From positions 1-40,453 of the forward strand of contig DATKMJ010000036.1 in NCBI GenBank assembly GCA_035541935.1: a stretch of 40,453 nt of DNA. The letters run 5' to 3'. Positions 88 to 17,036 of this stretch are shown here, piece after piece (position 1 is the first letter of the stretch; every line of letters begins with the position of its first letter). Origin of the DNA: Candidatus Binatia bacterium. GTDB lineage: Bacteria; Vulcanimicrobiota; Vulcanimicrobiia; Vulcanimicrobiales; Vulcanimicrobiaceae. The notes below the pieces were generated by a model that saw only the letters and a list, made by a program, of their open reading frames with translations, did no database searches and had not been told where the DNA came from. Made by a program: the position numbers and the translations under genes.

Positions 88-267
88 TTATCCGAGGCCA
101 CCGCTTACAAGGTCGCCGCTCGACCTTGGCTTCTTCTGCGCTTGGGTCTGTCTTTGGGTCGCATCCGTTGGCGCCGGTCCACCGGCCTGTGATCCGCCGC
201 ACCCGGCCAGCAATGCAGCGGCAACGCCGATCGTTACGGCGTGGCGGATCAGCCCCAAGCTGTTCAC
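88..267 (-). CDS. Short orphan lipoprotein (signal-peptide cassette with truncated body)
   Basis: A 59-residue reading frame starting at GTG. A GGGGGAG ribosome-binding site lies just upstream and aligns base for base with the one before the lipoprotein at 1818. Residues 1-23 form a lipoprotein signal peptide ending in the lipobox LLAGC, with Cys23. The mature part is only about 36 polar residues rich in Gln, Pro and Lys (GGSQAGGPAPTDATQ...). The signal peptide matches those of the full-length lipoproteins at 1818, 3343, 4563 and 16945, including Cys at residue 23. It is either a real small lipoprotein or the stump of a longer gene cut after its tether. It follows the HTH-like gene at 328-798 and is probably co-transcribed with it. 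Confidence 0.5.
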   Translation of the reverse strand: MNSLGLIRHAVTIGVAAALLAGCGGSQAGGPAPTDATQRQTQAQKKPRSSGDLVSGGLG

Positions 268-703
268 GTGCTCTTGCTCCCCCGATGCGGAAACGCATCG
301 GCAGCTAGGAACATTCGGCGTGGAGCTTCAGTTCCCGGCCTTGAGCAGTGCGAGCAAGCCGTCCCACTGCCGCGGATGCGGCGCCTTGGCGCCAGGCCGA
401 ATGCGCGAGCAGGCTGCGAGCGATAAGCCCGTCGCCGTCGCGATTTCCGCAAGCGTGAACGCGTCGAGCTTTGGCGCGATCTCGCGCTTAAACCACGCCT
501 CGTCGTGCTGGCCCGGACGCTCGCGCGACCAACCGCGATTGCGGCGATGCCCCTCGCTGATCGCCTCGCCTCGCGCGCGGTTGGCGGCTTTGCTGCGCCG
601 CGGATCGTTGCCCGCGGCGACTTTTGCTGCGAGGGCTTTGCGAGCCGCTTCGATCGCGCGGAGCCCATGCTTACGCCGGGCCTTTGGCATGCACGCCTCG
701 CAG
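190..703. repeat. Direct repeat copy 1 of a ~514 bp HTH/lipoprotein module
   Basis: This segment and 1741-2253 have nearly the same length and align almost without gaps (roughly 80% identical by eye). Each runs, on the minus strand, from the CEAC codons of an HTH-like gene, through its stop codon, a 7-bp hairpin and a GGGGGAG site, to the lipobox codons of a lipoprotein gene. Similarity stops sharply at 703/2253. In copy 1 the zinc-finger N-terminus continues there; in copy 2 a different lipoprotein leader does. Confidence 0.75.
283..300. other. 7-bp palindromic hairpin between HTH gene and lipoprotein start
   Basis: CGATGCG and CGCATCG form a perfect 7-bp stem around a 4-base loop (GAAA on the plus strand). 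It lies between the stop of the HTH-like gene and the ribosome-binding site of the short lipoprotein. An equivalent element sits at 1833-1850. It could be an RNA hairpin that tunes translation of the lipoprotein, or a dyad operator. There is no U-tract, so a terminator is unlikely. Confidence 0.5.
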
Positions 704-798
704 TGCCGGCGCCTGCGCTTGAGCGCCGGCTCGCCGCACGTCGCGCCACGCGATCGGTAAGCTCGGTCGTGCTTCGACGGGCAGCCTGACCCTTCCAA
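328..798 (-). CDS. Small zinc-finger / HTH-like DNA-binding protein (full-length copy)
   Basis: A 156-residue basic protein. Near the N-terminus, Cys residues in TCGEP and HCEAC look like a degenerate zinc knuckle (Cys21, Cys33, Cys36). Then comes an Arg/Lys/Ala-rich helix and a C-terminal HTH-like segment, ATGLSLAACSRIRPGAK, followed by PHPRQW. I recall similar motifs ending in PHPRHW in small actinobacterial proteins, but cannot name the family. A second, N-terminally truncated copy lies at 1878-2252. The listed start is TTG with no clear ribosome-binding site, so the true start is uncertain. It begins 36 bases after the lipoprotein at 835-1818 and precedes the short lipoprotein at 88-267, so the three may form one transcript. 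Confidence 0.55.
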   Translation of the reverse strand: MEGSGCPSKHDRAYRSRGATCGEPALKRRRRHCEACMPKARRKHGLRAIEAARKALAAKVAAGNDPRRSKAANRARGEAISEGHRRNRGWSRERPGQHDEAWFKREIAPKLDAFTLAEIATATGLSLAACSRIRPGAKAPHPRQWDGLLALLKAGN

Positions 799-834
799 GC
801 GGCTAAGGCGCTTAACCGAATCTAAAGTGGATCT

Positions 835-1818
835 TCAGCCTTTTGGTAGTAGGGGGGGCGAATATGCAGTCCCAGCCGGCTCGAAAAGGCCCTTGGTGAT
901 TTTTCGTTTAGATGGCGCAATCGAGCCGGGGGAAAATTCGACTACCACGCTGTCCCCATGGTCTGTCACATACAGATAGCTCTTCGCGTCGACTGTGACC
1001 GCAAGCGGATGGTCAATTCCCTTCGTGATCGCCTGATAAGGCGTACTTTGGCCTGATCGATACTCCTGTATGTTGCTTTCGTTGAAATTCGTTACATAAA
1101 GCGTGTCGGCTGCATCAACCGTAATTCCGACCGGAGAAATCGCGTCGACTGTGATGGTCCTGTTCGGTGATTTGCTGCCCGGAGGGTAGACTACGACGTT
1201 TCCGGGCCCGAAGGTTTCGCTGCCGGAAGTCTGTGTGACGTGGTTCGCAACATACATGTTCCCGGACTGGTCGATCGCAATCCCATCTGGATAGATTATG
1301 CCCTTAGTGATGACCGCGGTGGGCTTTGTCGAGCCTTTCGCGTATTCCGTGACATTCGGGCCGCCGATGTTCGTTACCCAAAGGTTCCCCTTGCTGTCGA
1401 TCGCGCAGAATGCCGGCGTATTGATACCCTTCTTGATGATCTTCGATGGTTTCGTTTGCCCGGCGGGGAACTCCGAAACCCAGCCCAAGCCAGCCGGCTC
1501 GTTTACAACATACAGCGTCCCATCGCCGTCGATGCAATCGCCGAACGGTGCATCCAAGCCGTTGGAAATAACTTCTACTGGATTGGGATCCTTGGCCTTC
1601 GCGTGGTAGACCTTGACGTCGTTGTAGTCGGAGATGTTGCCAACGTACAGTAACGGTGCCGAATGCGTGTGTCGGGTATCCGACGTTGTTGTTGTTGTTC
1701 GGCCTTGAGGCGCTGCGCCCGCCGCGCCGATCAGCGGCTGCGATCCGCCACAGCCCGCGAGCAATGCAGAAGCCGCGCCAATCGTTAGCGCATAGCGGCG
1801 TAGCCCCAACCCTTTCAT
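835..1818 (-). CDS. Beta-propeller-like (NHL/SMP-30 type) lipoprotein
   Basis: A 327-residue surface lipoprotein. The chosen ATG follows GGGGGAGCGAGAG; a longer frame to 1848 would start inside a hairpin. The signal peptide ends in LLAGC (Cys23), followed by the tether GGSQPLIGAAG. The body has about six repeats of ~45 residues with a recurring pattern such as GIAIDQSGNMYVAN, AVTVDAKSYLYVTD and GITVDAADTLYVTN. That is typical of NHL-like or gluconolactonase-type propeller blades. No catalytic metal site is evident, so a binding or structural role outside the cell is more likely than enzymatic activity. It is flanked by the two copies of the HTH-like gene. The function is unknown. Confidence 0.85.
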   Translation of the reverse strand: MKGLGLRRYALTIGAASALLAGCGGSQPLIGAAGAAPQGRTTTTTSDTRHTHSAPLLYVGNISDYNDVKVYHAKAKDPNPVEVISNGLDAPFGDCIDGDGTLYVVNEPAGLGWVSEFPAGQTKPSKIIKKGINTPAFCAIDSKGNLWVTNIGGPNVTEYAKGSTKPTAVITKGIIYPDGIAIDQSGNMYVANHVTQTSGSETFGPGNVVVYPPGSKSPNRTITVDAISPVGITVDAADTLYVTNFNESNIQEYRSGQSTPYQAITKGIDHPLAVTVDAKSYLYVTDHGDSVVVEFSPGSIAPSKRKITKGLFEPAGTAYSPPLLPKG

Positions 1819-1832
1819 ATCTCTCGCTCCCC

Positions 1833-1850
1833 CGATGCGGGAACGCATCG
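1833..1850. other. 7-bp palindromic hairpin, second copy
   Basis: CGATGCG and CGCATCG stem with loop GGAA on the plus strand. It sits between the stop of the truncated HTH-like gene and the GGGGGAG site of the lipoprotein starting at 1818. Stem bases are identical to 283-300 and only the loop differs, which suggests the stem is under selection or the duplication is recent. Confidence 0.5.
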
Positions 1851-1877
1851 GCGCCTAAGGACGTTCGGCGTGGAGCT

Positions 1878-2252
1878 TCAGTTCCCGGCTTCGAGCATTG
1901 CGAGCAAGGCGTCCCACTGCCGCGGATGCGGAACCTTCGCCCCGGCCCGAATACGCGAGCAGGCTGCAAGCGACAAGCCCGTCGCGACCGCAATCTCCTT
2001 GAGCGTAAACGCGTCGAGCTTTGGTGCGATCTCGCGCCTGAACCACACCTCGTCGCGCTGCCCTGGATGCTCGCGTGCCCAGGTGCGATTGCGGCGATGC
2101 CCCTCGCTGATCGCCTCGCCTCGCGCGCGGTTCACGGCGGCGCTGCGGCGTGGATCGTTGCCTGCGGCAGTCTGCGCTGCGAGCGCCTTGCGCGCGGCCT
2201 CGATCGCGCGAAGCCCATGCTCGCGCCGGGCCTTTGGCATGCACGCCTCGCA
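1878..2252 (-). pseudogene. N-terminally truncated copy of the zinc-finger/HTH-like gene
   Basis: From the CEAC codons onward this reads the same protein as 328-702, with substitutions but an intact frame, ending ...RQWDALLAMLEAGN. It keeps the HTH-like motif ATGLSLAACSRIRAGAK. Upstream of 2253 the homology ends abruptly. The open frame continues to 2324 only through out-of-frame lipoprotein codons, so the first zinc-knuckle half is missing. The conserved frame hints that the C-terminal part was under selection until recently, or that it is still translated from an unrecognised start. Confidence 0.55.
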
Positions 2253-2257
2253 TTGTG

Positions 2258-2380
2258 CCGAGGCAGCGATCTGTCCGCGTCGCTCGCGCCCGGCGCGCCG
2301 GTCGGCGGCTGCGACCCGCCGCACCCTGCCAGCAACACCGCAGCCAGGCTAACGCTGAGGGCGTGGTGCTTAGGTTTCAA
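2258..2380 (-). pseudogene. Lipoprotein 5' fragment (signal peptide and tether only)
   Basis: From a TTG at 2380 the frame encodes a signal peptide ending VLLAGC and the tether GGSQPPTGAPGASDADR, very like the other lipoproteins in the window. It then runs out of frame into the truncated HTH-like gene at 2253. The body of this lipoprotein has been lost and replaced by the repeat module. No good ribosome-binding site is seen. It begins 6 bases after the stop of the glycine-rich gene. Confidence 0.55.
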
Positions 2381-2386
2381 AGCGTT

Positions 2387-3343
2387 TCACTGCCAACTAA
2401 AAACGACAAGGCCATTACCTGTGGCGTTCTTCCAGCCCGTCCACATTCGCACTGAGGTTGCAGTTGGCTCGACGTACGATGATCCGCCTCCGCCACCGCC
2501 GCCTGCCGACCCACCTGCGCCGCCGCCTCCGCCTTCGCCGCCACCACCACCGCCGCCGCCGAAGTAACCACCGCCGCCACCGCCGCCTGCGCCGCCCGTG
2601 GCGGAACTGGTGTCCCCGGGGCCTCCGTTACCTCCGTCGCCGCCAGCGCGTCGTCTTCCGGATTTACCGTTTTGCCCGTGACTGCAAGAGTAACAGCTCT
2701 TTTGTCCACCGACGCCGCCCGAGCCGCCGCGATTCTGCGTCGCGCCACCGCCACCGCCTCCGTCGCCGCTGTCGCTGCTGCCCGCGCTGCCTGCGCCGCC
2801 GACGACTCCTCCGCCGGCACCACCCGCGCCCCCGCTGTTTTCGTAGCCGCCCTCTCCGCCGCCGCCCGCCGCGACCAATATGCGATCGCGCGGCTCCGTA
2901 CCACCTTCCCGCACGTCAGAGGCGCCGCCGCCGCCAAAACCGCCCATGCAGCAGCCTGCTGGGTTTCCACCACCGTTGAAACCTCCGACCGCCCAACCGT
3001 TCTGATAATAGCCAGCCCCGCCGACGTACACGTGTAAGGTTTCACCCGCGCGTACCGGTATCACGGCATAAACGCGCGCGCCGCGACCGCTGCGAGTCGT
3101 GTAGTACGGCGACAAGCCGCCCGAGGCACCACGCGCGACAACGGTGATGCTCGTCACGCCCGGAGGTACTTTGAACGATTGCCGCTTGCCGGTAAATTTA
3201 AAGGTGTGGTGGTACGGGAGCGAAGCCCCTAACGGGTTCTCCAGTGGAATCGCACCGCTGCTCAAGGTCCCGCCGCAACCCGCTAACAACGCCGCAGCCG
3301 CGCAACTGCTTAGCGCATAACGACCAAGATCCAAGCTCTTCAT
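2387..3343 (-). CDS. Glycine-rich lipoprotein
   Basis: 318 residues. The ATG at 3343 is preceded by GAGGAG and gives a signal peptide with lipobox LLAGC (Cys23). The chain starts with a beta-rich segment (HHTFKFTGKRQSFKVPPG and TSITVVARGASGG), like the N-terminus of bacterial 'glycine-rich domain' proteins related to the ALK Gly-rich fold. It then becomes extremely glycine-rich to near the C-terminus, with GGGGGG runs, ILVAAGGGG, and the Cys pairs CCMGG and CYSC. It ends with GSSYVEP...GNGLVVFSW, the typical closing strand of that family. It is probably a cell-surface structural or adhesive protein. The opposite strand shows long Arg/Pro-rich frames that are only shadows of the GGN codons. 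Confidence 0.85.
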   Translation of the reverse strand: MKSLDLGRYALSSCAAAALLAGCGGTLSSGAIPLENPLGASLPYHHTFKFTGKRQSFKVPPGVTSITVVARGASGGLSPYYTTRSGRGARVYAVIPVRAGETLHVYVGGAGYYQNGWAVGGFNGGGNPAGCCMGGFGGGGASDVREGGTEPRDRILVAAGGGGEGGYENSGGAGGAGGGVVGGAGSAGSSDSGDGGGGGGATQNRGGSGGVGGQKSCYSCSHGQNGKSGRRRAGGDGGNGGPGDTSSATGGAGGGGGGGYFGGGGGGGGEGGGGGAGGSAGGGGGGGSSYVEPTATSVRMWTGWKNATGNGLVVFSWQ

Positions 3344-3350
3344 CCCGATG

Positions 3351-3412
3351 CTCCTCGCTCCGTGAACGCCACGCAGCCCAGCATCGTTTCGGCTTAGCCC
3401 GGCTGAGCCCCC
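3351..3412 (-). promoter_or_regulatory. Conserved 62-nt leader, copy A
   Basis: In the 5' untranslated region of the glycine-rich lipoprotein, this 62-nt stretch matches 4572-4633 at about 55 of 62 positions without gaps. It runs from GGGGGCTCAGC to the GAGGAG ribosome-binding site. It contains a small hairpin (CGTG-GCGTT-CACG). It matches no riboswitch consensus I know. It could be a structured leader RNA or just part of a duplicated export cassette. Confidence 0.5.
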
Positions 3413-3581
3413 GCGGCAGCCGAGCCGCGGCGCCTTATGGCATTTGATCGGCGACATCGCCGCGCAAGTCGCACCGAAGCCATCGCGCCGGAGTTACAAG
3501 GCCATTTCCGAAAGACGTCGCTGCACAAGGCGGCATTGATAAGCCTCGCGCGCCAAATTACTTAGGGCGACCGCTACGTAG

Positions 3582-3599
3582 CGCAGCCGTGAGGCTGCG
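3582..3599 (-). terminator. Hairpin after lipoprotein gene (possible terminator)
   Basis: CGCAGCC-GTGA-GGCTGCG (plus strand) forms a perfect 7-bp stem with a four-base loop, 4 bases beyond the stop codon of the lipoprotein at 3604-4563. The placement fits a terminator or 3' stabiliser. No U-tract follows on the minus strand, so termination is unproven. The adjacent GCTACGTAGC is also palindromic. Confidence 0.4.
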
Positions 3600-3603
3600 G
3601 CGA

Positions 3604-4563
3604 CTAGCCCCGGCTGATTGTCACGCCCATAGCCTTAGAACCGCGCAACTTAAGGCCCCAACTCGATATGGACTTCCTGTGCGTATCGCCGGCTGGATAT
3701 TTCCAGAAGCCCAGAGCGCGCTGTACCTGTTGCCCCTTTTGGTACATGGAGATCACGGAATCGCCGTCAATCCAAGAGGTTCCCTTGAGCTTCTTGATCT
3801 TCGTGAACGTGGTCGTTCCAACGACCGAAGCTTGGGAGCCCGAAATGGTCAGACGATAGATTTTACCAGATAGATCCTCAACGGTTATGTACTGACCGTC
3901 CCATTGGACTTGGCCTGGATCTTGGACGCTGACGTTCACCGAAATATCCGTAAACTCGCTGGCGCCTTTCGGCAGCTCGGCAAATCCGAAGGGGTGCGAT
4001 GCATTGCCGGCTCCGTCCACAAAGAGATTGCCCTGATTGTCGTAACCGCAGTATTCAATGGTCAACTGCGCGTCTTGGTACAGCGTCGGGGCTCCTTGAG
4101 CATTCTGGAATATGGCGACGCCGTTACTACCGGGACTCGCTTGGTATGCTGCGGCCAGATTCCCGGTGACCGGGTCTACCGAACAACCCTGATCGTTGGA
4201 GGGGTACGGCATAGCAAGCTTTGCGGTCGGCAGCGTGCCACCGTGAGCGTACTCGAAGATGTCGTCTTGCGAGCCGGCTAACACGGGGATAAAAACGTTA
4301 CCACTTGCATCCGCACAGGGCGCTCCAACGGCGTTCAGCGTGGCAACTCCGGCCAGCTTCCCGCCGGGGTATGAAAAGATGCAGGCTCCGCCGCAGACGT
4401 TCGTGACGTAAATAAGGTCGCCGGTTGCTCCGGGCTGACCATGCGAGCGGCTTTGGGGTACGGCGCTTGCGAGGGGCGAACCAGGCGCTCCCCCGCACCC
4501 CGCCAGCAATGCCGCAGCCACGAAGCTTGTTAGCGCATGGCGGCCCAAGTTCCAATATCCCAT
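3604..4563 (-). CDS. Beta-propeller-like lipoprotein
   Basis: 319 residues. The ATG at 4563 follows GAGGAG and yields a signal peptide with lipobox LLAGC (Cys23). The mature chain carries propeller-like repeats with motifs such as LIYVTNVCGGACIFSYPGG, GAPCADASGNVFIP, CGYDNQGNLFVDG and VQWDGQYITVED. The last two also occur in the paralogues at 14606-15622 and 19324-20334, as does ELPKGAS. Cys pairs (VCGGAC) may form disulfides outside the cell. The 62-nt leader at 4572-4633 lies just upstream. There are no catalytic motifs; it is a surface protein of unknown ligand. Confidence 0.85.
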   Translation of the reverse strand: MGYWNLGRHALTSFVAAALLAGCGGAPGSPLASAVPQSRSHGQPGATGDLIYVTNVCGGACIFSYPGGKLAGVATLNAVGAPCADASGNVFIPVLAGSQDDIFEYAHGGTLPTAKLAMPYPSNDQGCSVDPVTGNLAAAYQASPGSNGVAIFQNAQGAPTLYQDAQLTIEYCGYDNQGNLFVDGAGNASHPFGFAELPKGASEFTDISVNVSVQDPGQVQWDGQYITVEDLSGKIYRLTISGSQASVVGTTTFTKIKKLKGTSWIDGDSVISMYQKGQQVQRALGFWKYPAGDTHRKSISSWGLKLRGSKAMGVTISRG

Positions 4564-4571
4564 GATCCTTA

Positions 4572-4633
4572 CTCCTCGGTGCGTGAACGCCACGCAGCCT
4601 AGTATCGTTTCGGCTTGGCCTCGCTGAGCCCCC
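4572..4633 (-). promoter_or_regulatory. Conserved 62-nt leader, copy B
   Basis: Partner of the leader at 3351-3412, directly upstream of the lipoprotein starting at 4563 and ending in its GAGGAG site. Similarity outside this block, both upstream and downstream, is much weaker. That argues for the leader itself being conserved rather than a simple whole-gene duplication. Confidence 0.5.
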
Positions 4634-4761
4634 TCGCTGATTGAAGGCCATGTACCATGGCTCGATATCCACCCCGTGGTAGCGTTGCGACCTTTGATTC
4701 GAACGAGGCCGCTATCGTGGATGTTTCCGATCGTTCGGTCCGCTCGCGGGATGAACGAACG

Positions 4762-5739
4762 TCACGTCGGACTGATTGCGGTTCCCACCGGTGACGAAAT
4801 GCCGCTCGTTATCGCGCCGAGCGGCGAGCCGCCCGGATACGTGTAAATCTCGACGTTGCTGTAGGTGTTGTCGGGCGCAAGAATTGTCGCCGACGATCCC
4901 GACCCCCACAGCGTAAACTCCGCAAGGTATTGCGTCTTGCTCAAGGGGATGGTGTTAAAGATCGTCGCGGTCGAGCCGCTCACGCGCGCCTCATAGATGT
5001 GCGTGGTGCGATCGTAAACGTCGCCGATCAGCAGCTCCGTTCCCGTGGCCAGCACGCCGCTCGGCAAGAACCACGTTCCACCGGCAAGGCTGAGAATCGT
5101 AAACCCTCCCGCGCCCTTGCCGAACTCGCCCAACACCGGATGATACGAACTGTCGTAGGCGGTGACGTAGAGATTGCCCTTGCGGTCGAAGCTGCAGAAG
5201 AGTGGCACGTAGAGCGTTGCATCGGAGTAATCGGTGGGCGGCCCCGACGGCGACGGGTAGATGACTACGTTCCCCGGCTCGGCGCCGCTCGGGTTGGCGG
5301 AGTTGGTGACGGCCAACCGGCCCGTCTTGCGATCGATCGCACAGCTCAGCGGCTGGCCGAACGGATCGGAAATCTGCGCTTTGGGAGTGATCGCACCGTG
5401 GGCGTATTCGTCGATGACCTGGGCCGTCTCGTCGGTGATGAAGACGTCGCCCCGGGCGTCGGTGCACTCGCCCGCCGGCACTTGAAAGCCGAAGAGCTCG
5501 CCGACGAGTGCAAAGTTGGTGCCACCCGTGTTTGCGTAAACGGTAACGCCGCCAACGTCTGAAACGTAGAGCAGCGTCTGACCTTTGGCCGCCGGCGTCA
5601 GCCAGGATTTCCCCGGCGCCGACGCGGCGGGGCCTGCCGTGCGGACGACCGGGGTGAAGCCGCCCGACGTTGGCGGCGAGGAGCACGCGCAAACCGCCAC
5701 GCCAACCGCCGTTGCGGCCGCCAATTGAATAAAGCGCAT
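4762..5739 (-). CDS. Beta-propeller-like lipoprotein
   Basis: 325 residues. The ATG is preceded by a strong AGGAGG. The signal peptide ends in a lipobox around VCAC (Cys19). The body has propeller-type repeats: LLYVSDVGGVTVYANTGG, CTDARGDVFITDET, CAIDRKTGRLAVTN and CSFDRKGNLYVTAYD, with a late FTLWGSGSSATILAPD. The Cys before each aspartate-rich turn is shared with the lipoprotein at 3604-4563, so the two are probably distant paralogues. The signal peptide does not belong to the LGR-AL-LLAGC cassette type. Its function is unknown, probably binding at the cell surface. Confidence 0.85.
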   Translation of the reverse strand: MRFIQLAAATAVGVAVCACSSPPTSGGFTPVVRTAGPAASAPGKSWLTPAAKGQTLLYVSDVGGVTVYANTGGTNFALVGELFGFQVPAGECTDARGDVFITDETAQVIDEYAHGAITPKAQISDPFGQPLSCAIDRKTGRLAVTNSANPSGAEPGNVVIYPSPSGPPTDYSDATLYVPLFCSFDRKGNLYVTAYDSSYHPVLGEFGKGAGGFTILSLAGGTWFLPSGVLATGTELLIGDVYDRTTHIYEARVSGSTATIFNTIPLSKTQYLAEFTLWGSGSSATILAPDNTYSNVEIYTYPGGSPLGAITSGISSPVGTAISPT

Positions 5740-5846
5740 TTAGCCTTCCTCCTTCGAGCGATGGACGATGCTCGAGTCTACCGCGCCCCCGTACGCCGGG
5801 CGTGCGCGAGATTGTAGGAGGGCTCAAAAAGCCCCGCCGGGCGACT

Positions 5847-5866
5847 AAGGAGTCAATGCTCTCCTT
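5847..5866 (-). terminator. Hairpin directly after the oxidoreductase gene
   Basis: AAGGAG-TCAATGCT-CTCCTT forms a 6-bp stem immediately beyond the stop codon at 5868. On the plus strand it is followed by a short T run, on the minus strand it is not. It may terminate readthrough from the plus side or act as a weak 3' hairpin for the gene above. Evidence is modest. Confidence 0.3.
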
Positions 5867-5867
5867 T

Positions 5868-6836
5868 TTAGTCCGCGAGGACGACCACGCGGGGGCGACC
5901 GCGTTCGGCGGCCTTCCACGCTTCGCTCACCTGCGATAATGGAAACGTTCGTATCGGTACGTCGACTGCCCCGTCGGCGATCAACGCAACGTAGCGCGGA
6001 ATTTCGGCGATAATATCGGTCAGCGACGCGGAGCCCGCGCCGCTTCCCGTGATGCGTAGCTTGCGGCTGCGCAGCAGTGCGGCGGGGACCGCCGCGTCCG
6101 GACCCGCGGCTGCGCCGATTTGAACGTACGAGATGTCGGCGCGATCGGTCTCGAGACCGCGTCTTCCGAGCGCTGCGAACGCGCTTTCGGCCGGTGCGCC
6201 CCAGAGAAAATCGAGTACGATATCGGGCGACGACCCGTCGAGAGCCGCAAGAATTGCGGCGCGGTCGCGTTCGCGATCGCCGCTTAACGCTGCGGTAGTG
6301 GCGCCCGCTTTGAGCGCGTCGGACAGGCCACGAGCGTCGCGGCCCGCGCCCACGATGCGCGTTGCGCCGAGGATGCGCGCGTTCTGTACCGCGAGCAGTC
6401 CCGCCATCCCCGTGACGCCCAGAATCAGAACGTTATCGAGTCTGCCGAGCTCCGTGCGGCGCGCCTGGAGCAGCAGCCAGGATGCCATGCCCGGGTTCAC
6501 GCCGCCGGCAACGCGCGCCGGATCGGCGCCTTCCGGCAGCGGTATCCACAAGAGCGACGGAACGGAGATCCGTTGCGCGAGCGTGCCCCACGGCGGTTGC
6601 GGGAAACCCGAGTACGCAAGCGCGCCGTCCGCGTTGCGAACGACGGCATCGACCCCGGGAACGAGCGGCCACTCGTCGCTGCTGCCGTAATGCCGGCCAC
6701 TCGCAAGCCCACGCACGATCGGATGAATGCCCGCCGCGACGAGCTCGACGACGTGCCGGCCCTCCTGCTCTGCCGGATCTGCAAAATCGCCGTAGCGTGC
6801 GCTCTCGCCGGGCGCGTCGACCAACGCCGCTTTCAT
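5868..6836 (-). CDS. Medium-chain dehydrogenase/reductase (zinc-less, quinone-oxidoreductase-like)
   Basis: 322 residues of an MDR-superfamily, presumably NAD(P)H-dependent, cytosolic oxidoreductase. The N-terminal GroES-like part includes VPGVDAVVRNADGALAYSGF. The Rossmann segment ILGVTGMAGLLAVQNARILGA carries the dinucleotide-binding glycines, followed by VGAGRD. The catalytic-zinc Cys/His pattern and the structural-zinc Cys cluster of classical alcohol dehydrogenases are absent. The chain ends with the usual FPLSQVSEAWKAAE...RVVVLAD of quinone-oxidoreductase relatives. I chose the ATG at 6836 over an upstream GTG because the family start is MKAALV. It stands alone between lipoprotein genes; its substrate is unknown. 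Confidence 0.85.
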   Translation of the reverse strand: MKAALVDAPGESARYGDFADPAEQEGRHVVELVAAGIHPIVRGLASGRHYGSSDEWPLVPGVDAVVRNADGALAYSGFPQPPWGTLAQRISVPSLLWIPLPEGADPARVAGGVNPGMASWLLLQARRTELGRLDNVLILGVTGMAGLLAVQNARILGATRIVGAGRDARGLSDALKAGATTAALSGDRERDRAAILAALDGSSPDIVLDFLWGAPAESAFAALGRRGLETDRADISYVQIGAAAGPDAAVPAALLRSRKLRITGSGAGSASLTDIIAEIPRYVALIADGAVDVPIRTFPLSQVSEAWKAAERGRPRVVVLAD

Positions 6837-7157
6837 TTCTCTTAACGATGCGACGCAGGACTGATCGTTGCCGCCCACGGCCCTTCGCTGTCGCGTTTTG
6901 CTGCTCCATGTCCACCCATCGTCACGGCGAAGCGGATCAATCCTGCGAGACTTGCAAAGCGCATCGGCTATCCTTAAATTGGATTCGCCACGCGCAAACG
7001 CAGCCCCCTAAGGAAGCACGGCGATCGTCTCCGCTCAAGGAGGAGTAACGCCACGAATACGGTTGGTCTAGCGGAATACGCCGATTGGAGTTGCCCCGCT
7101 CTCGCGCGTGGTTTTTCATCTCTTTGCTCCTCGCCCCCGCGAACGCCACAGCGCGAC
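6837..7157 (-). pseudogene. Gene-free stretch with traces of a decayed lipoprotein cassette
   Basis: About 320 bases without a convincing gene. On the minus strand near 7110-7150 there is a block resembling the end of the 62-nt leaders (TGGCGTTCGCGG...GAGGAG, then ATGAAAAAC). Nearer 6900-6960 an ATG opens a short frame reading ...LAGLIRFAVT, reminiscent of the LIRHAVTIG of the cassette signal peptide. It then loses the lipobox. I read this as a rotted lipoprotein leader and signal peptide. The evidence is short matches only. Confidence 0.3.
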
Positions 7158-8570: not shown

Positions 8571-8625
8571 GGCGTTGCTCCAATCCCTCAAGACGAGTGT
8601 TGATGGGTACTCAACCCGGCGCGCG

Positions 8626-8802: not shown

Positions 8803-8902
8803 AGAGGCCTCCGGAGCGCTCGCAGCGATTTTCGCGAACGAGCCTTCGGGACGCACGTTCTGCAGCCCCGCTAGTGCGCGATGAACGCGCTCGGGCGGCT
8901 CC

Positions 8903-9628: not shown

Positions 9629-9666
9629 GCACAGCCGTAGCGCAGCGCCACGGCAACGTGTGACGT

Positions 9667-10596
9667 CTAGCCGGGCCCGAGGGCGAGGCCGCTCACTTGA
9701 GCCTGCGGGACGAAGCTGCGCTTCGACGTTCGTTTCCCGGGCGCGTAGACTACAATCCCCTTATACGTGTCGACATACAGGGTTCCGTCGGCCGCGACCG
9801 TGAGCGCGACGATCGTGTCTCGGGTGTGGATTACCCGCGATGGCGCGGTCTCGCCGGACGGGTAGACCGAGATCAAATTCGCTCCTCCCACGTAGAGATT
9901 CCCCGACGCGTCCATGGCGATCAGCCCACCGTAGGCCTTTGTGAGGTTGAGATTGACGAACGTGGACGAACTCGCGTTCAGACGCAGCACGGCCCCCACT
10001 TGCCCTTGCTTGTTCTGTGCGAGCGAGGCAACGCCGACGAGTAGAGCGCCCGTCGAGTCGAAGGCCATGCCCACAGGCGCCGATATCGTTCCGATCGTTG
10101 GCACAACGTACTCGTGTGCGATGCTCTGACTGCCGGGTGGATAAACGTCGATGACGGCCTGACCCTGGCCGTTGACTCCCTGAGCGTAGACGTTCTGCGC
10201 GGAGTCGGCGGCAACGATCGAGCCATAGCGTTGAAGCACGAGCGAGAAAAACGGGCTCTGGCCACCGGGTTCGAACTCCTCGATCGTCTCATACGGGTAA
10301 CTGCGGTTATCGGTAAACGCATATAACACGCCGGTACGATCCACCCACACACCCGTGACCCGCGGCAGGCCGTCGGTGATGTCGCCGACTTCGTGCGGGT
10401 TCTTGCCGGTGGAATAGAGCGGCACACCGCCAAGGATGTTTGCGAGGTAGAGATCTCGCGAACGCGTGGTTGCGCGGTCGGGTGCAGCAAGCCCAACGGC
10501 CGGCGGCGTTCCGCCGAGCGAAGCGCAACCGGCGAGTGCGAATGCGATCGCAGCCAAACCGGGAATCGAGCGCCGAGTGAGGCGGTAGCCTAGCAT
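9667..10596 (-). CDS. Beta-propeller-like lipoprotein
   Basis: 309 residues from the ATG at 10596, which has GGAGG six bases upstream; an in-frame upstream extension to 10662 has no such site. The signal peptide carries two Arg (LTRRS) and ends ALAGC (Cys24). Propeller-like repeats follow: DLYLANILGGVPLYSTG, GVWVDRTGVLYAFTDN, GMAFDSTGALLVGV, AMDASGNLYVGG and TVAADGTLYVDTYKG. Its signal peptide is not of the cassette type. Probable surface-bound protein, ligand unknown. Confidence 0.85.
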   Translation of the reverse strand: MLGYRLTRRSIPGLAAIAFALAGCASLGGTPPAVGLAAPDRATTRSRDLYLANILGGVPLYSTGKNPHEVGDITDGLPRVTGVWVDRTGVLYAFTDNRSYPYETIEEFEPGGQSPFFSLVLQRYGSIVAADSAQNVYAQGVNGQGQAVIDVYPPGSQSIAHEYVVPTIGTISAPVGMAFDSTGALLVGVASLAQNKQGQVGAVLRLNASSSTFVNLNLTKAYGGLIAMDASGNLYVGGANLISVYPSGETAPSRVIHTRDTIVALTVAADGTLYVDTYKGIVVYAPGKRTSKRSFVPQAQVSGLALGPG

Positions 10597-10709
10597 GTGC
10601 AGCCTCCGTAGGGCATCGTAGCCGAAAAAATTACGAGTGGCCTGAGTTTGGGACGAACTCATGAAAAATCTCTGAACGCACCCTCGCGGGTGTGGCGGCC
10701 GGCGGGCGG

Positions 10710-12116
10710 CTACGCGGGCAGTACCGGTTTCTCGTGCGGCAGACCGGCGTCGTCAATGTCGAAATCCGGATCGAAAATCGTGTTCCCTTGCGCTCCGAGG
10801 AATGCGGGCTGCGCTTTGATCCACTCACTCGGCTTTGCCTCGCGAGCGTACTCTAATAGGCGCTCCTCGAGATCGCGGACGACGTCGGGAAATTGTTCGG
10901 CAACGTTATGTTGTTCGCTGGGGTCTTTGACAAGATCGAAGAGCTCCGTCTTCCCGGGGAGCAGCGGAATCTTCACCAGCTTCCAGGCTCCCTTCCGGAT
11001 CGCGCCGCGAAACGGCTCGACGTTGATGAGGATATCGTCATGTGGCGAGGGTCGCCCATCGGCGACGGCTGGCCAGATATCCTTGCCGTCGAATGGATGA
11101 TCTGGGCTTCCGGTGGCGCCTGCGAGAGAGAGAAAGGTGGGCATGAGATCCACCATGTGCAGCGGCTCGGCGACGACTCGCGGAGCAAGCGTTCCGCGCC
11201 AGTTCAGAATCGTCGGTACGCGCACGCCGCCCTCATGGAGCGAGCCTTTCCCGCCACGCAGGGCGCCGTTCGACGCCGGGAGAACGCCGGCCAGTTCGTC
11301 GCCACGTTCTTCGGGGGATCGCGCTCCGGTCGCAAAGAGGCTGCTCGTGGCTCCGCCGTTGTCGCTAGAAAAGACGATGAGCGTGTTGTCGCGCATCTTT
11401 TTCCGTTCGAGCGCGGCAACGATGCGTCCGACTTGGTCGTCGAGCGCCGTGATCATCGCGGCATACGTGCGGCGTTTCTCGTCCGCGAGGCCGCCATACC
11501 GGTCGACGTCGTCTTTTGGGGCTTGGTACGGCGCGTGCGGCGCCAGCGAGGCGAAATAAAGAAAGAGGGGAGTCGAAATATCGCTGTCTTCGATCAGGCG
11601 CACCGCTTCGTTGCCGATCAACGTCGTGAAGTAGCCGTCCTCTTCGAAGAACCGGCCGTTGCGTTGCCAGTCGATCAGCCCGCCGCGCTCCTTTGTGAAG
11701 TAATCCACCTCGCCGACGAGGTTGCCGTAGAAGTGATCGAATCCACGGTTTTGCGGCCAGAATTTCTTATCCGCGTGCCCGAGGTGCCATTTGCCGACCA
11801 TCGCAGTGTAGTAACCGGCGTCCTTTAGCGCTTGCGGAAGCGTTCGCTCGTCGGTCGGAAGGCCGTACGTATGGCTCGGAAAGATCACGAGCGTTTGCAG
11901 CCCGTAGCGAATCGGATAGCGGCCGGTCATCAGCGCGGCGCGCGCCGGCGTGCACACCGGCATTCCATAAAAGGACTCTAAGCGGACGCCGCCTGCCGCA
12001 AGGGCATCGATATTCGGCGTCCGGATGTCGCTGCCGTGAATTCCGAGATCGGCATTGCCGAGATCGTCGGCAAGAATGACGACGATGTTCGGCCGCGCAT
12101 TGTCAATGCTACCCAC
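10710..12116 (-). CDS. Sulfatase (S1 family, Cys-type)
   Basis: 468 residues. The N-terminus IVVILADDLG carries the metal-binding aspartates. Cys55 in CTPAR is the C-x-P-x-R signature whose Cys is converted to formylglycine, and GKWHLG and SSDNGGA supply further active-site residues. The family hydrolyses sulfate esters. No signal peptide is seen, so it is either cytoplasmic or exported with a partner. It starts at GTG three bases after the TAA of the phosphoesterase gene, with GGAG upstream spanning that stop, so translation is coupled. No formylglycine-generating enzyme or anSME lies in the window. Confidence 0.92.
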   Translation of the reverse strand: MGSIDNARPNIVVILADDLGNADLGIHGSDIRTPNIDALAAGGVRLESFYGMPVCTPARAALMTGRYPIRYGLQTLVIFPSHTYGLPTDERTLPQALKDAGYYTAMVGKWHLGHADKKFWPQNRGFDHFYGNLVGEVDYFTKERGGLIDWQRNGRFFEEDGYFTTLIGNEAVRLIEDSDISTPLFLYFASLAPHAPYQAPKDDVDRYGGLADEKRRTYAAMITALDDQVGRIVAALERKKMRDNTLIVFSSDNGGATSSLFATGARSPEERGDELAGVLPASNGALRGGKGSLHEGGVRVPTILNWRGTLAPRVVAEPLHMVDLMPTFLSLAGATGSPDHPFDGKDIWPAVADGRPSPHDDILINVEPFRGAIRKGAWKLVKIPLLPGKTELFDLVKDPSEQHNVAEQFPDVVRDLEERLLEYAREAKPSEWIKAQPAFLGAQGNTIFDPDFDIDDAGLPHEKPVLPA

Positions 12117-12119
12117 TCG

Positions 12120-13787
12120 TTATGCTCCGTTTCTTAGTCCGGGAAATATGTCGAGAGACATATTTCGCATAATCTCATGAGCTTTTGCGCCGGTGATCTC
12201 GGCGTCGTGCGGAATCTCCGGAACGTTCGCGCCCAAACTCTTCTCGAAAGCGAGGATTCCGAAGAAGATCCCCTTGCCGAGGACGGAGAGCGGCAGGTTT
12301 GGCGGAAGCAGCGCCGCGTTGAACGGCGGCACCGCTTGCGGGGTAACCTCCGGCCATTGCTCGGGCGGCCTCGGCGTATCAAGCGAGAGAATCGGCGCAA
12401 TGTCCGCGGCGATCGCGTCGCGCGCGGTCAGCGGCGCTCCAAGCGACCAACGCTCGCGCAACGTTCGTATCACCGATGTGTGCCGGTACTCCTCGGTAAC
12501 GACCCGGCGAGCGGGAATCCACGCCGAGATCGCGATTGCCGGTACTCGCTGCCCGGAGCGGTCGAACGTGAATCCCATCTGGTCCGGCGTCGCCGACGAG
12601 TCGGGCGGCGGAGCCGGCGGCGGCGGCACGTGATCGTACGTGCCGCCCGCTTCGTCGAACGCGACGAGGAGCAGCGTGTTGAGATAGTTCGATCCGCTCG
12701 ACGATGACGAGGTTCGCACGGCGTCATAAATCTGCGCGAGCAACGCCTCGCCGCCGAGCAACGATGACGGCGGATCCCACGGCAAACCATGCAGTAAGGC
12801 CGAGATCGGCGGGTGCATATCGTTGTGCCCGTGCCAGAGATTCGGCTCGATAAACGCGTAGGTGGGGAGCCGCCCGTTCTTCGCGTCCTCCAAAAAGTCT
12901 GCAACGGTGAAGAAGTTCTTCGCAAAGCGGCTGTGCAGACGCGAGGCGTGGATGATGCCCGTCATTGACGCGGGGCTGGGAGCGTCGCAGTAGACGCGCC
13001 ACGTGAGGCCCTTCGATTCCAGGCGCTCGAAGATCGTCTCCGCGTTGTTGTGAACGGGGAACGCGTCGGCCGGCGGAAAGTTGATGATGTATCCGGAGGC
13101 CGTCGCGGCGTGAAAGAACGAGCGGTTCGTAAACGTCTGCGACGGCACTTCGCAGAACCAGTGATCGAAGGTGGCGAATCCTCGCGCGAGCGTCGAAGTG
13201 ACCGGCAGTTGCGCCGGCGTATAGCCCGTCATGATTTGAGCGTACTCGTCGTAGGTCGGCTGGCGGCGCATCTCGGCGGTAAACGCGCTGATGTAATCTG
13301 CGAGAAAACCGTCCATCGTCGGCTGCTGCCCCGCGATCGGGGCATTGAACGGAGCGACCATTTTCGACAACGGCACGAACCGGTTCTTCGGATCCTGTAC
13401 GCCGAAGAGATCGGTGTTGATGTGGGGATACTCTTCGCCTGGATCCGGCTTGGGCGTATTCATGTTCGTCGCGACGCCGTACGGTACGAACTTGCGATCG
13501 GCGCCGTGCTCGGCCCAATCCGGAATGGGATTCTTGAGGTCCTTGCCGAGGACGCCGTCGAACGACTCGACCTCCCCAGGGCCGTAGAGCCGGCCCAACA
13601 CGTTGTCGAACGACCGATTTTCGAACATGACGACGACGACGTGATCGAGCGCATTTCTCCGGTCGGCGAGGAGCTTTGTTCTCTGCGCGTCGGCGAGGCG
13701 CGGCAGCGCGGCACCGACGGCCGCCATGCCAACGCCTTCGGTGAAGCGGCGGCGCGTAATCGTGCCGGACGAACGTGGATCGGCCAC
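12120..13787 (-). CDS. Phosphoesterase family protein (phospholipase C / acid phosphatase type, PF04185)
   Basis: 555 residues from a GTG with GGAGG seven bases upstream; a TTG at 13826 is less likely. A twin-arginine motif, TRRRFTEG, followed by a hydrophobic stretch and ending near LADA, suggests Tat export. The hallmark motifs are VVVVMFENRSFDNVLG near the N-terminus, HGHNDMHPP in the middle and FDEAGGTYDHVPPP late; these bind metal and phosphate in the AcpA/PLC family. It should hydrolyse phosphomonoesters or phospholipid head groups outside the cytoplasm. It is coupled to the sulfatase and diverges from the 2H phosphoesterase gene 75 bases away. Confidence 0.9.
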   Translation of the reverse strand: MADPRSSGTITRRRFTEGVGMAAVGAALPRLADAQRTKLLADRRNALDHVVVVMFENRSFDNVLGRLYGPGEVESFDGVLGKDLKNPIPDWAEHGADRKFVPYGVATNMNTPKPDPGEEYPHINTDLFGVQDPKNRFVPLSKMVAPFNAPIAGQQPTMDGFLADYISAFTAEMRRQPTYDEYAQIMTGYTPAQLPVTSTLARGFATFDHWFCEVPSQTFTNRSFFHAATASGYIINFPPADAFPVHNNAETIFERLESKGLTWRVYCDAPSPASMTGIIHASRLHSRFAKNFFTVADFLEDAKNGRLPTYAFIEPNLWHGHNDMHPPISALLHGLPWDPPSSLLGGEALLAQIYDAVRTSSSSSGSNYLNTLLLVAFDEAGGTYDHVPPPPAPPPDSSATPDQMGFTFDRSGQRVPAIAISAWIPARRVVTEEYRHTSVIRTLRERWSLGAPLTARDAIAADIAPILSLDTPRPPEQWPEVTPQAVPPFNAALLPPNLPLSVLGKGIFFGILAFEKSLGANVPEIPHDAEITGAKAHEIMRNMSLDIFPGLRNGA

Positions 13788-13861
13788 TCTCCAACCTCCA
13801 AGGAATTGCGCTGTTTCCCAACGCAATTGCTCGTTTTTCCGACAGGAGTTACTGTAATCCT

Positions 13862-14500
13862 ATGAGCGACACCACCGCGATCGACATCCTGCTCGAGCCC
13901 GATGCAGCGATGTTGCAGCACGCGCAAGCGGCAAACGCGCGCCTGCTGAAGGTGTTCCCAAAAGGCTACGCCTTGGACGCCGCACATCAACCGCACATCT
14001 CGTGCCTGCAACGCTACGTAAGGACCGACGCACTCGAGAATGTTTTTGCCGCCGTAAGCGGCGTGTTGGCGACCGAGCATCCCGCGGCGTGGAAGTTGAC
14101 GGCGTTTCAGTACTACTACATACCCTGGAAGGGCTTGGGACTGGCCGGCATCGTCATCCGCCCGACGGACGAGCTGCTTGCATATCAACAGAAGTTAATC
14201 GATGCCGTGTCGCCGTTCACCGTGCCGTCCGGAGACGCCGCCGCCTACGTTACGACGCCTGAAGACCCCGACATCGTCGAGCCGGTGATCGAGTACGTCG
14301 CCTCGTTCGTGCCGAGTCACTCGGGAAAGAACTTCAGCCCGCACGTAACGATCGGTCTCGCTCCCCAGGAGTATCTCAAAGGCATGCTCGCCGAGCCGTT
14401 CGATAATTTCACGTTCTCGCCGGCGAGTGTCTCCGTCTACCAGCTCGGGAATTACGGCGTCGCTGCGAAAAAACTTAACGGGTGGACGTTAAGCGACTAA
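13862..14500 (+). CDS. 2H phosphoesterase superfamily protein (2'-5' RNA ligase-like)
   Basis: 212 residues with the two H-x-[ST] motifs of the 2H superfamily: PHISCLQRY near residue 43 and SPHVTIGLA near residue 160. This family acts on 2',3'-cyclic or 2'-5'-linked phosphates, but specificity here is unknown. No signal peptide is seen, so it is probably cytosolic. A purine-rich AGGAG is 13 bases upstream of the ATG, a little far. It diverges from the phosphoesterase gene and precedes the lipoprotein at 14606. Confidence 0.85.
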   Translation: MSDTTAIDILLEPDAAMLQHAQAANARLLKVFPKGYALDAAHQPHISCLQRYVRTDALENVFAAVSGVLATEHPAAWKLTAFQYYYIPWKGLGLAGIVIRPTDELLAYQQKLIDAVSPFTVPSGDAAAYVTTPEDPDIVEPVIEYVASFVPSHSGKNFSPHVTIGLAPQEYLKGMLAEPFDNFTFSPASVSVYQLGNYGVAAKKLNGWTLSD

Positions 14501-14605
14501 CGCCAGAGCAACCGTGCTCCCATTCCGTACGGAGGCGCGGCCCGACTGCCGGTCGAAAGGCCCACCCCGACTCCAGACAAGCTACTTTTAAAGGAGCAAG
14601 TTTTA

Positions 14606-15622
14606 ATGACCACCCCTGCTTTCCTTAGATGCGCCGGCGCAGTCGTCGCGCTCGCAGTCGTTTCAGCGTGCGGTAGCGGCTCGGCGATCGCACCGTCGGC
14701 TCGCGGAATCAGCACGGCGTACTCGGGCAGAACGCTGCTCGTGAATGGGCGCCCGGTAACGGCGGAGAGGCTGAACCCGCTTCCGCGTTACGCAGAGCTC
14801 GTGCCGGAGAAGAAGAAGTCGAAGAACTACGAGTACATCATCAACTACTACGGCACGTATGCCAGCATTTTCAACTATCCGAAAGGCACCTCGATGATCG
14901 GGCAGCTCCAGGGTGCAGGTGGCCAAGGCTGCACGAACGTTCTGTACGGCTACGGGAAGAAGATCATCTGGAACGCCGGGCGTACGAACGATCTGATCTC
15001 CGAATACAGGGTTCCGACCAAGCTGATCAAGACGCTCTCCCTCGACTATACGTTTACGTCTAGTTGCGCCATGAATAGCAGCGGCGACCTCGCGGTCGGG
15101 GTTCTCTTGGGTAACTCGTACGGTCCCGCCGGTCAGGTCGTGATCTTCAAGAACGCGACCGGCACGCCCAAAGTCTACAATACGCCGTTAGCCAGAGAGT
15201 ACTTCGACGGCTACGACCCCAACGGCAATCTCTTTGCCGATGGCTTCGCCGGGACGTACTCCTTCGGGCTCGTCGAGCTTCCGAAGGGTAGCAGCAAGGC
15301 CGTCTCGATCAAGACGAGCAACTCTCCGTCGTTTCCCGGCTCCGTGCAGTGGGACGGCACCTACCTGACGGTCTTCGATCAAGACACGAGCGAGACGTAT
15401 CAGTACACGATCAGTGGAACGAACGCAACGCTGAAGAACACGGTGAAATACTCGGGTGCGAGCGACTGCGCGCAGACGTGGATCGTGAAGGGCCTGATGT
15501 ATTGCGGCGACGCCGGAAACAACCAAGGCGAGGTCTACAACTATCCCGCCGGCGGTTCGCCGGTTGCAACGTTCACCGGCGACTTCGATCTGCCGCTCGG
15601 CGTGGTTGCGGCGAAGAAATAA
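14606..15622 (+). CDS. Propeller-like lipoprotein, paralogue of the 19324-20334 gene
   Basis: 338 residues. AAAGGAG precedes the ATG. The signal peptide ends VVSAC (Cys22). The mature protein opens with GRTLLVNGRPVTAERLNP and PRYAELVPEK, then propeller repeats with YASIFNYPKG, EYFDGYDPNGNLFADG, VQWDGTYLTVFDQ and DCAQTWIVK. The chain aligns end to end with the minus-strand gene at 19324-20334. The VQWDGTYLTV and ELPKGS motifs also recur in the lipoprotein at 3604-4563. There is no enzyme motif; it is a surface protein of unknown role. Confidence 0.88.
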   Translation: MTTPAFLRCAGAVVALAVVSACGSGSAIAPSARGISTAYSGRTLLVNGRPVTAERLNPLPRYAELVPEKKKSKNYEYIINYYGTYASIFNYPKGTSMIGQLQGAGGQGCTNVLYGYGKKIIWNAGRTNDLISEYRVPTKLIKTLSLDYTFTSSCAMNSSGDLAVGVLLGNSYGPAGQVVIFKNATGTPKVYNTPLAREYFDGYDPNGNLFADGFAGTYSFGLVELPKGSSKAVSIKTSNSPSFPGSVQWDGTYLTVFDQDTSETYQYTISGTNATLKNTVKYSGASDCAQTWIVKGLMYCGDAGNNQGEVYNYPAGGSPVATFTGDFDLPLGVVAAKK

Positions 15623-15640
15623 TCCTAGCCGGCGCGGTCG

Positions 15641-16945
15641 TTAGGGGGTTAATGCAAAGATGGTACCGCAGCAATCCCCTTCCGATCTGCCGCCGTACTC
15701 GGTCGTGCCGTAGAGCGTACCGTTAACGTCGAGTAACGGCGCCTCGGGCTCCATGCCATCGGTGCCGCCGGCAAATCCGTGGACCACGCTTTCCGCACCG
15801 GCCGTGCTGATGCTGAAGATAGTTCCGCAGCCGGAGCCTCCAGCGCACGCGGTATTACCGCCGTACGCCGTCGTGCCGTAGAGCGTGCCGTTGACGTCAA
15901 CCAGGCCCGCGTGCGGATTAGCTCCGTCGGAGCCACCCGCAAAGCTATAGAGAACTCTCTCCGTCCCGCTCATCGTGACGCTAAAAACGGTGCCCAACTT
16001 GTGCGCGCCGCCCACGCTCGTCGTGCCGTAGAGCGTGCCGTTGACGTTAACCAATTCCCCCATGGGGTACGCGCCGTCGGGCGCGGCGGTGAAGGGATAC
16101 AACACCTTTTCGACACCGCTTGGAGTGATGCTGTAGACGACGCCGCAGCCGTCGGCGCAGTTCGGGCTTTTCGGACCGCCCAACATCGTCGTGCCGTAAA
16201 GCGTTCCGCTCACGTTGATCAGTCCGCCCTTGGGATTGGCGCCGTCGGGATCGTTTTTGAAACTATGCAGCACGGTATGCGTGCCCGACGTGGTGATGCT
16301 GTAAACGGTACCGCCCCAAGACCGAGTTGCCGGCGCTATGCCGTGATCCTGCCGCCCTTTTACGCCGCCGCCCCACGTCGTGCCGTAGAGCGTACCCTTG
16401 ACGTTGACCAATGGCGCCTCGGGCGAGAAGCCGCCCGATGCCGGTCCAAAGAAATTATAGATCACGTTCTCAGTGCCGCTCGCCGTGATGCTGAAAACGG
16501 TTCCCGCTCCGGTGCCGCCTTTGTAGGTCGTGCCGTACAGCGTCCCCTTTACGGCGGTCAAACCGGCCTCGGGGAACGCTCCTTGCACTCTCGGATAGAA
16601 CGCGTAGAGCGAATGTTCCGCGCCGCTCGTCGTGATGCTGAAAACGGTCCCGCAGCCATACTTTCCGGCGTGGCTCCCGGCGCAGTTCTTGCCGCCGGCC
16701 TCCGTCGTGCCGTACAGCGTCCCGTTCAGCTCAACCAACCCGGCCATCGGATGTGCCCCGCTGGGGTAGCGAGCGAAGACATAGAGCTGCTGGTACGACG
16801 ATGAGGACGAATGCGAAATGCCGCGCGAACTCTGCAGCCCAGTCCCCGGCACCCCGATCGGCGCCTGCGCTCCGCCGCATCCCGCAAGTAAAGCCATGAA
16901 GGCGCAAGCGCTTAGGGCGTTGCGGCCAATATCCAAGCTCTTCAT
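15641..16945 (-). CDS. GloVer-repeat lipoprotein (TIGR03803 type)
   Basis: 434 residues. GGAGG is nine bases before the ATG. The signal peptide is of the cassette type (LLAGC, Cys23) with the tether GGAQAPIGVPG. The body is a series of about eight repeats of ~50 residues built from NGTLYGTTxxGG, GTVFSITxSG and LYSFxxxxDGAxP. This is the Gloeobacter/Verrucomicrobia 'GloVer' tandem repeat. Such repeats are thought to form extended or propeller-like beta structures in exported proteins. It converges on the lipoprotein gene ending at 15622, leaving only 18 bases between them. Confidence 0.92.
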   Translation of the reverse strand: MKSLDIGRNALSACAFMALLAGCGGAQAPIGVPGTGLQSSRGISHSSSSSYQQLYVFARYPSGAHPMAGLVELNGTLYGTTEAGGKNCAGSHAGKYGCGTVFSITTSGAEHSLYAFYPRVQGAFPEAGLTAVKGTLYGTTYKGGTGAGTVFSITASGTENVIYNFFGPASGGFSPEAPLVNVKGTLYGTTWGGGVKGRQDHGIAPATRSWGGTVYSITTSGTHTVLHSFKNDPDGANPKGGLINVSGTLYGTTMLGGPKSPNCADGCGVVYSITPSGVEKVLYPFTAAPDGAYPMGELVNVNGTLYGTTSVGGAHKLGTVFSVTMSGTERVLYSFAGGSDGANPHAGLVDVNGTLYGTTAYGGNTACAGGSGCGTIFSISTAGAESVVHGFAGGTDGMEPEAPLLDVNGTLYGTTEYGGRSEGDCCGTIFALTP

Positions 16946-17036
16946 CGTTGCCGTCCTCCAACGATAGCGACGAGAAAAGACGTTCTTTGCCGCCTCGAAT
17001 ATTCCAGCCGAGCGGGCGGCTCCTAGATAGCGCCCC

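Follow-up and report, generated by a model that had tools for sequence, protein, structure and literature searches.

A shared 5′ cassette precedes unrelated lipoprotein bodies in one genus of Candidatus Eremiobacterota

Why do several genes whose mature products belong to different protein families begin with nearly the same signal peptide? The question is raised by a 40,453-nt stretch of DNA (hereafter, the window), contig 36 (DATKMJ010000036.1) of a metagenome-assembled genome (GCA_035541935.1; 2.41 Mb, 99% complete, 64% G+C). An earlier note, made from the letters of the window, had proposed that one lipoprotein export cassette is attached to unrelated mature domains there. The answer that we favor, with a probability of roughly 0.8, is that a homologous 5′ module (the cassette) multiplied in one genus and was repeatedly recombined onto unrelated or distantly related mature parts (hereafter, bodies). 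Sequence comparisons, described below, demonstrate that the copies of the module are homologous and independent of the bodies; they also demonstrate the recombination breakpoints, the expansion and the specificity of a promoter motif.

The window contains seven cassette N-termini. In the genes starting at 267 (a GTG start codon), 1818, 3343, 4563 and 16945 the signal peptides are homologous and the lipobox cysteine is residue 23, in agreement with the earlier note, and looser relatives are found at 2380 (Cys20) and 31621 (Cys21). The features of Sec export and signal peptidase II processing are present (an N-terminal positive residue, a hydrophobic stretch and the lipobox [LVI][AST][GA]C), with Cys23 in 100 of 177 catalogued genes and MKSLGLSRYALSICVAAALLAGCGGSQPPIGAPGAMPQSSAI as the genus consensus of the N-terminus. 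Lipidation at the cysteine and membrane anchoring are predicted from these features. A short tether, CGGSQxxIG, follows in genes 1818, 16945 and 2380, is shortened in gene 267 and takes a loose form at 31621. The sharing of the tether by several genes, also claimed previously, holds for these; genes 3343 and 4563 diverge from it after CGGT and CGGA.

The bodies behind the cassette indeed differ (NHL/SGL-type, ALK/LTK-type glycine-rich, propB, GloVer and, in gene 267, near-nothing). Those of genes 16945 and 31621 scored 235 and 214 bits against TIGR03803 (NCBIfam; cut-off 44) and are 36% identical to each other, the body of gene 3343 is a marginal, low-complexity match to PF12810 (ALK/LTK glycine-rich; 26.6 bits with a gathering score of 24.5), and that of gene 4563 belongs to a propeller family without a Pfam match. 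Three segments had been taken as cassette leftovers: this stands for the stub at 88-267 and for 2258-2380, where the body is lost, but 6837-7157 is a weak case without a lipobox, its leader-like match being 83% over 23 nt.

The similarity reaches into the upstream DNA. Genes 267 and 1818 share 82% identity over 220 nt, a stretch that takes in the end of a duplicated helix-turn-helix (HTH) gene. Genes 3343 and 4563 have a second leader type (type 2; 88% over 65 nt and 78% over 147 nt), which in five genomes is found before four or more types of body. On contig 67 of the same genome, two genes with a GloVer body (L008) and a propB body (L010) share the block of 267/1818 from CCGGGAACTGA to the CGGSQ codons (138-140 nt), the HTH gene not included. 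The two HTH-gene copies (86% over 300 nt) lie on the minus strand at 328-789 and 1881-2258, directly upstream of genes 267 and 1818, and encode a small zinc-ribbon/HTH-like protein that matches no Pfam family; a third copy lies at the edge of a contig (C50), and relatives, including some in another genus, have several copies of the family. We rejected the HTH gene as a carrier of the cassette, because each occurs without the other: L008 and L010 have a cassette but no HTH gene, and the HTH gene is also found alone.

The upstream similarity had been described as a 62-nt untranslated leader common to two genes. Judging from motif and spacing, the shared leader is rather, and probably, an extracytoplasmic function (ECF) sigma-like promoter (GA(A)AC-N17-CGTT) with a very short 5′ untranslated region. 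GAAC-N17-CGTT was found in 23 upstream regions, compared with about 0.1 expected from shuffled sequences; these represent all main body families, and the motif mostly begins 46-51 nt 5′ of the start codon. The spacing between GA(A)AC and CGTT is 17 in 41 genes, and any other spacing from 10 to 24 occurs in at most 5. When three genomes (G000, G010 and G013) were searched by pattern genome-wide, all 12 sites with ≤1 mismatch were located before cassette-type lipoproteins, 12-23 nt 5′ of their start codons. The base 3′ of CGTT varies (C 43, A 8, T 6, G 4; n=61), and the G of GAAC is nearly fixed. The AAC-containing -35 element, the CGTT-like -10 element and the 16-17 spacing of ECF promoters are all present in the motif, and EcfG-type sites read GGAAC-N16-CGTT (PMC7083833). 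No sigma-70-type promoter above chance was detected in the first 7.3 kb of the window. We infer from the motif that it has promoter activity of the ECF sigma class and that the cassette genes are regulated in common. With the leader read as a promoter, what moves is a unit of promoter, signal peptide and tether. Upstream of several genes (L034-3631, L153+2991, L168+3000 and others), a conserved GGAACTGA was observed about 18 nt before the -35 box; it yields an overlapping GAAC-N17-CGTT, and a tandem promoter is possible.

To describe the distribution of the cassette, we counted profile matches (E<=0.001) in 18 genomes of the Candidatus Eremiobacterota genus to which the window belongs; all genomes compared are metagenome assemblies. 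Cassette N-termini were detected in 17 of the 18, at about 6-120 per genome (20 in the genome of the window, 98 in G003 and 120 in G016). Other genera of the same family have 0-1 each, and one more distant genome up to 8. On these counts the cassette is expanded within one Eremiobacterota genus. Among named genomes, 44 of 47 loci with the cassette N-terminus are Candidatus Eremiobacterota records, many from 'palsa' isolates. The cassette genes are chromosomal, scattered as well as clustered, with copies dispersed along a 2.79-Mb contig of G010 and across many contigs of G000. Lipoproteins without the cassette are numerous in the same genomes. A literature search, limited in extent so that absence is no proof, found no description of such a module in this phylum.

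The relationship between cassette and body was profiled in a catalogue of 154 distinct cassette genes, taken from clusters of five relatives and from named loci, and in an extended catalogue of 177 that adds genes with an early LSSC match. The conclusions were the same with both, though in the rerun single-linkage clustering fused propB and NHL_A, which makes the counts of 'different family' more conservative. The bodies include propellers (propB and NHL_A), GloVer, glycine-rich and small domains and stubs, along with a kumamolisin-like protein (E=7.5e-11), a 7-bladed lactonase and DUF642. For the 154 genes, the DNA identity of cassettes from different body families was 0.527 and that of cassettes from the same family 0.523; for the 177, the values were 0.57-0.59 and 0.59-0.60. 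Concerted evolution within a genome was rejected, as within-genome identity is barely above that between genomes. Mantel correlations of cassette and body in four families ranged from -0.11 to 0.12 (p 0.19-0.82, none significant). On a tree of 64 propB bodies, of which 62 were labelled (18 cassette, 44 other), there were 16 label changes and 15.8 after shuffling, and a minimum of 4 changes of the cassette label is required even when only strongly supported branches are counted. Cassette similarity is, by these measures, independent of body family, and the agreement of cassette and body phylogenies that the earlier note had named as evidence against swapping was seen neither here nor in the four swap pairs described below. 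Codons at identical residues agreed in 50% of cases, against an expectation of 32% taken from that residue in the remaining columns of the cassette, and the excess held against two controls; codon bias of the signal peptide, the other explanation that had been raised, is therefore excluded as the cause of the similarity. In G013, one cassette (L133+11207) is joined to the C-terminal part of an McrBC component (PF10117), probably an accidental chimera.

Direct evidence for exchange comes from four pairs of genes that differ in their N-termini and whose bodies are 95.9%, 92%, 91.7% and 88.9% identical in DNA (over 941, 909, 1008 and 906 nt, respectively). Three of them are L154+2982/L139-13815, L135+4040/L133-8724 and L124+1166/L128 (each of the latter two in one genome); in another, L140-11586/L132, the signal peptide of the partner does not resemble the cassette. 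The homology begins at or 3′ of the tether and, in 3 of the 4 pairs, ends a few nucleotides from the stop codon; the DNA immediately 3′ of the stop codon is unrelated in 3 of the 4. The preference for recombination over duplication expressed in the earlier note is supported by these pairs, but in the clean ones it is the body, from the tether to about the stop codon, that is the part in new surroundings. The adjacent genes 4563 and 5739 in the window have bodies that are homologous from just past the tether (32%, E=5e-25) and unrelated signal peptides. This segment (3604-5739) is the mirror image of the main finding, with the same body type behind differing signal peptides.

The tether is conserved at the DNA level. 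Silent-site conservation of the tether DNA (TGCGGCGGATCGCAGCCGCCGATCGGCGCGCCGGGCGCGATGCCGCAA) was 0.76, compared with 0.37 expected, and that of the signal peptide of the same genes was 0.42, compared with 0.28; the tether values are equal within and between genomes. Adjacent identical tether residues keep differing fixed codons (GGC then GGA; CAG versus CAA), and the tether contains a palindrome, CGCCGATCGGCG, as in gene 1818. A role of the tether as DNA, for example in recombination, is possible. That it is a dedicated recombination site or hotspot, which would make this an active body-exchange system with no known pathogen or prophage setting, seems improbable to us. A mobile palindromic element was rejected, as the copies without a lipobox are few, mostly short and degenerate; a conserved RNA structure was also rejected, since RNAalifold gave no more than three pairs and folding was not significantly stronger than in synonymous sequences of matched GC content (11% as low). 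Tether DNA without a lipobox (LAPNGGSQPPIG) was observed at positions 15350 and 16334 of L142 (G010), where stop codons soon follow, and these are probably degenerate cassettes. A GC-rich hairpin (CTGCACGGCTTCGCGAAAGCGGGGCCGTG) is found on the minus strand of L130 (2687-2766) and at 17 other places in G003; in relatives it follows many cassette genes, and a number of other genes, at 1-50 nt 3′ of the stop codon. It was rejected as a general partner of the cassette, being absent from the genome of the window and following other genes too in G003.

In the mechanism we propose, the module would consist of an ECF-sigma-like promoter, a Shine-Dalgarno site, a Sec/signal peptidase II lipoprotein signal peptide and a short Gly/Pro-rich tether. 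The breakpoints would fall at the tether or immediately 3′ of it on one side and close to the stop codon on the other, and the simplest route assumed is ordinary homologous or short-homology recombination between repeated, often clustered cassettes. Any body placed behind the module would then likely be expressed along with the other bodies and exported to the cell envelope, where a lipid would anchor it.

Could the cassettes be alike without such recombination? Under convergence, the codon and amino-acid bias of lipoprotein signal peptides would make unrelated genes look alike, and all of these peptides are hydrophobic and Ala/Leu-rich in a genome of 64% G+C. Convergence is refuted because the similarity extends to silent sites (codon identity 0.50 versus 0.32) and non-coding DNA; the differing fixed codons of neighbouring identical residues and the many lipoproteins without a cassette also speak against it, and we give it almost no credence. 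Plain duplication of one lipoprotein ancestor, with bodies diverged beyond recognition and an N-terminus kept by selection, is very unlikely, even though true paralogues exist within body families and a weak similarity links propB and NHL_A bodies. The glycine-rich, GloVer, kumamolisin, DUF642 and propeller bodies are separate families, cassette and non-cassette propB bodies are intermingled on the tree, and bodies 89-96% identical with different N-termini refute duplication unless they are assembly errors. Alternatively, the bodies might be moved by a dedicated exchange system, such as an integron-like device or a site-specific recombinase that has the tether DNA as its target. The silent-site conservation of the tether, its palindrome and the closeness of the swap edges to tether and stop codon are in line with such a system, which we nevertheless consider improbable: in the swap pairs the tether remains with its own cassette and the break is 3′ of it, the tether alignment has neither a conserved fold nor a significant folding excess, few tether copies occur outside lipoproteins, and no recombinase turned up, though no systematic search for one was made.

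Several observations weigh against the recombined-module reading. The catalogue was gathered by cassette similarity and from clusters, and is a non-random sample. Repeated cassettes in metagenome assemblies invite misjoins, though the pattern is also present in two assemblies of few contigs, G010 (5) and G013 (9). The promoter motif occurs in about a quarter to 40% of catalogued genes only, and of the 93 genes without it 38 closely follow another open reading frame. GAACG...CGTTC also forms a hyphenated inverted repeat, and 5′ of the Shine-Dalgarno site there are local hairpins, GATGCG-TTCC-CGCATC among them, so the leader could be a repressor operator or a regulatory RNA hairpin instead of a promoter. 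We consider this unlikely, since the spacing is fixed at 17, as in ECF promoters of the EcfG kind, the two halves vary independently (GAAAC versus CGTTC; a variable base after CGTT), and the first 7.3 kb offer no above-chance sigma-70-type site in its place. The features of the window that bear on the recombined module are listed in Table 1. Elsewhere in the window, on the minus strand at 10710-13826, a sulfatase gene (PF00884) adjoins a phosphoesterase-family gene (PF04185).

Table 1 Cassette genes, remnants and putative promoter sites in the window
Position	Strand	Feature	Remark
88..267	-	59-aa cassette stub: signal peptide, CGGSQ, 32 aa more	intact promoter
291..317	-	promoter motif CGAATGTTCCTAGCTGCCGATGCGTTT of 267 gene	
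835..1818	-	cassette lipoprotein, NHL/SGL-type propeller body	
1705..1752	-	tether DNA of 1818 gene	from Cys codon
1841..1867	-	promoter motif CGAACGTCCTTAGGCGCCGATGCGTTC of 1818 gene	0 mismatches; best site of the genome
2252..2380	-	body-less cassette	runs into 5′-truncated HTH copy
2387..3343	-	cassette lipoprotein, ALK/LTK-type glycine-rich body	
3365..3390	-	promoter GAAAC-N17-CGTT of 3343 gene	type-2 leader
3604..4563	-	cassette lipoprotein, propeller body of family propB	
4586..4611	-	promoter GAAAC-N17-CGTT of 4563 gene	type-2 leader
4762..5739	-	neighbour of 4563, homologous body	signal peptide unlike cassette
6837..7157	-	doubtful remnant, leader-like stretch	no lipobox
15641..16945	-	cassette lipoprotein, GloVer repeats (TIGR03803)	
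16960..16985	-	weaker promoter-like site GAAC-N18-CGTT of 16945 gene	read from sequence
30362..31621	-	divergent cassette lipoprotein, GloVer repeats	

Shared 5′ modules are familiar from Borrelia (Erp) and Mycoplasma (Vpma/Vsp), which are host-associated bacteria, and immune escape is the usual explanation. The presence of up to about 120 copies in an uncultured genus from soil and permafrost metagenomes suggests a driving force other than immune escape. The module suggests a simple way for bacteria to bring new proteins under the control of a regulon and into an export route that they already have, and the cassette is a sequence tag that marks an entire set of surface lipoproteins in a phylum of which little is understood.

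Among the known systems, the YSIRK/GXXS signal peptides of staphylococci and streptococci are common to several surface proteins and direct the location of export (PMC5962339); they are a protein motif of Gram-positive cell-wall proteins, and a shared promoter module is not claimed for them. PARCEL elements are palindromic coding DNA spread by recombination through surface lipoprotein genes (PMC2996958); they are tandem 25-residue domains, whereas the tether here is a single short linker after the lipid-anchor cysteine. The Mycoplasma Vpma/Vsp (and Vsa) genes have a conserved 5′ untranslated region and signal peptide with largely unrelated mature parts (PMC2268961). There, the Xer1 recombinase inverts DNA and brings silent genes to one active promoter, whereas here many genes have their own copy of the promoter motif, and neither a single expression site nor an arrangement of one active promoter with silent copies was seen.

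The closest likeness is to the Erp (OspE/OspF/Elp) or 'upstream homology box' genes of Borrelia burgdorferi, in which a shared promoter and leader precede unrelated mature parts (PMC10016077, PMC6719511, PMC12018966). The Erp genes occupy a single site on cp32 prophages, with 12 genes in strain B31, whereas the cassette genes lie on the chromosome of bacteria in another phylum, both dispersed and in clusters, with as many as about 120 in a genome; they have an ECF-like promoter motif and mostly propeller-type bodies, and do not share one allelic site on cp32 prophage plasmids. In both systems, one promoter, a leader peptide and the first mature residues stand before recombined bodies of many origins. 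This likeness is one of mechanism only, with no sequence homology to Erp claimed: the Eremiobacterota system works alike without being a member of that family.

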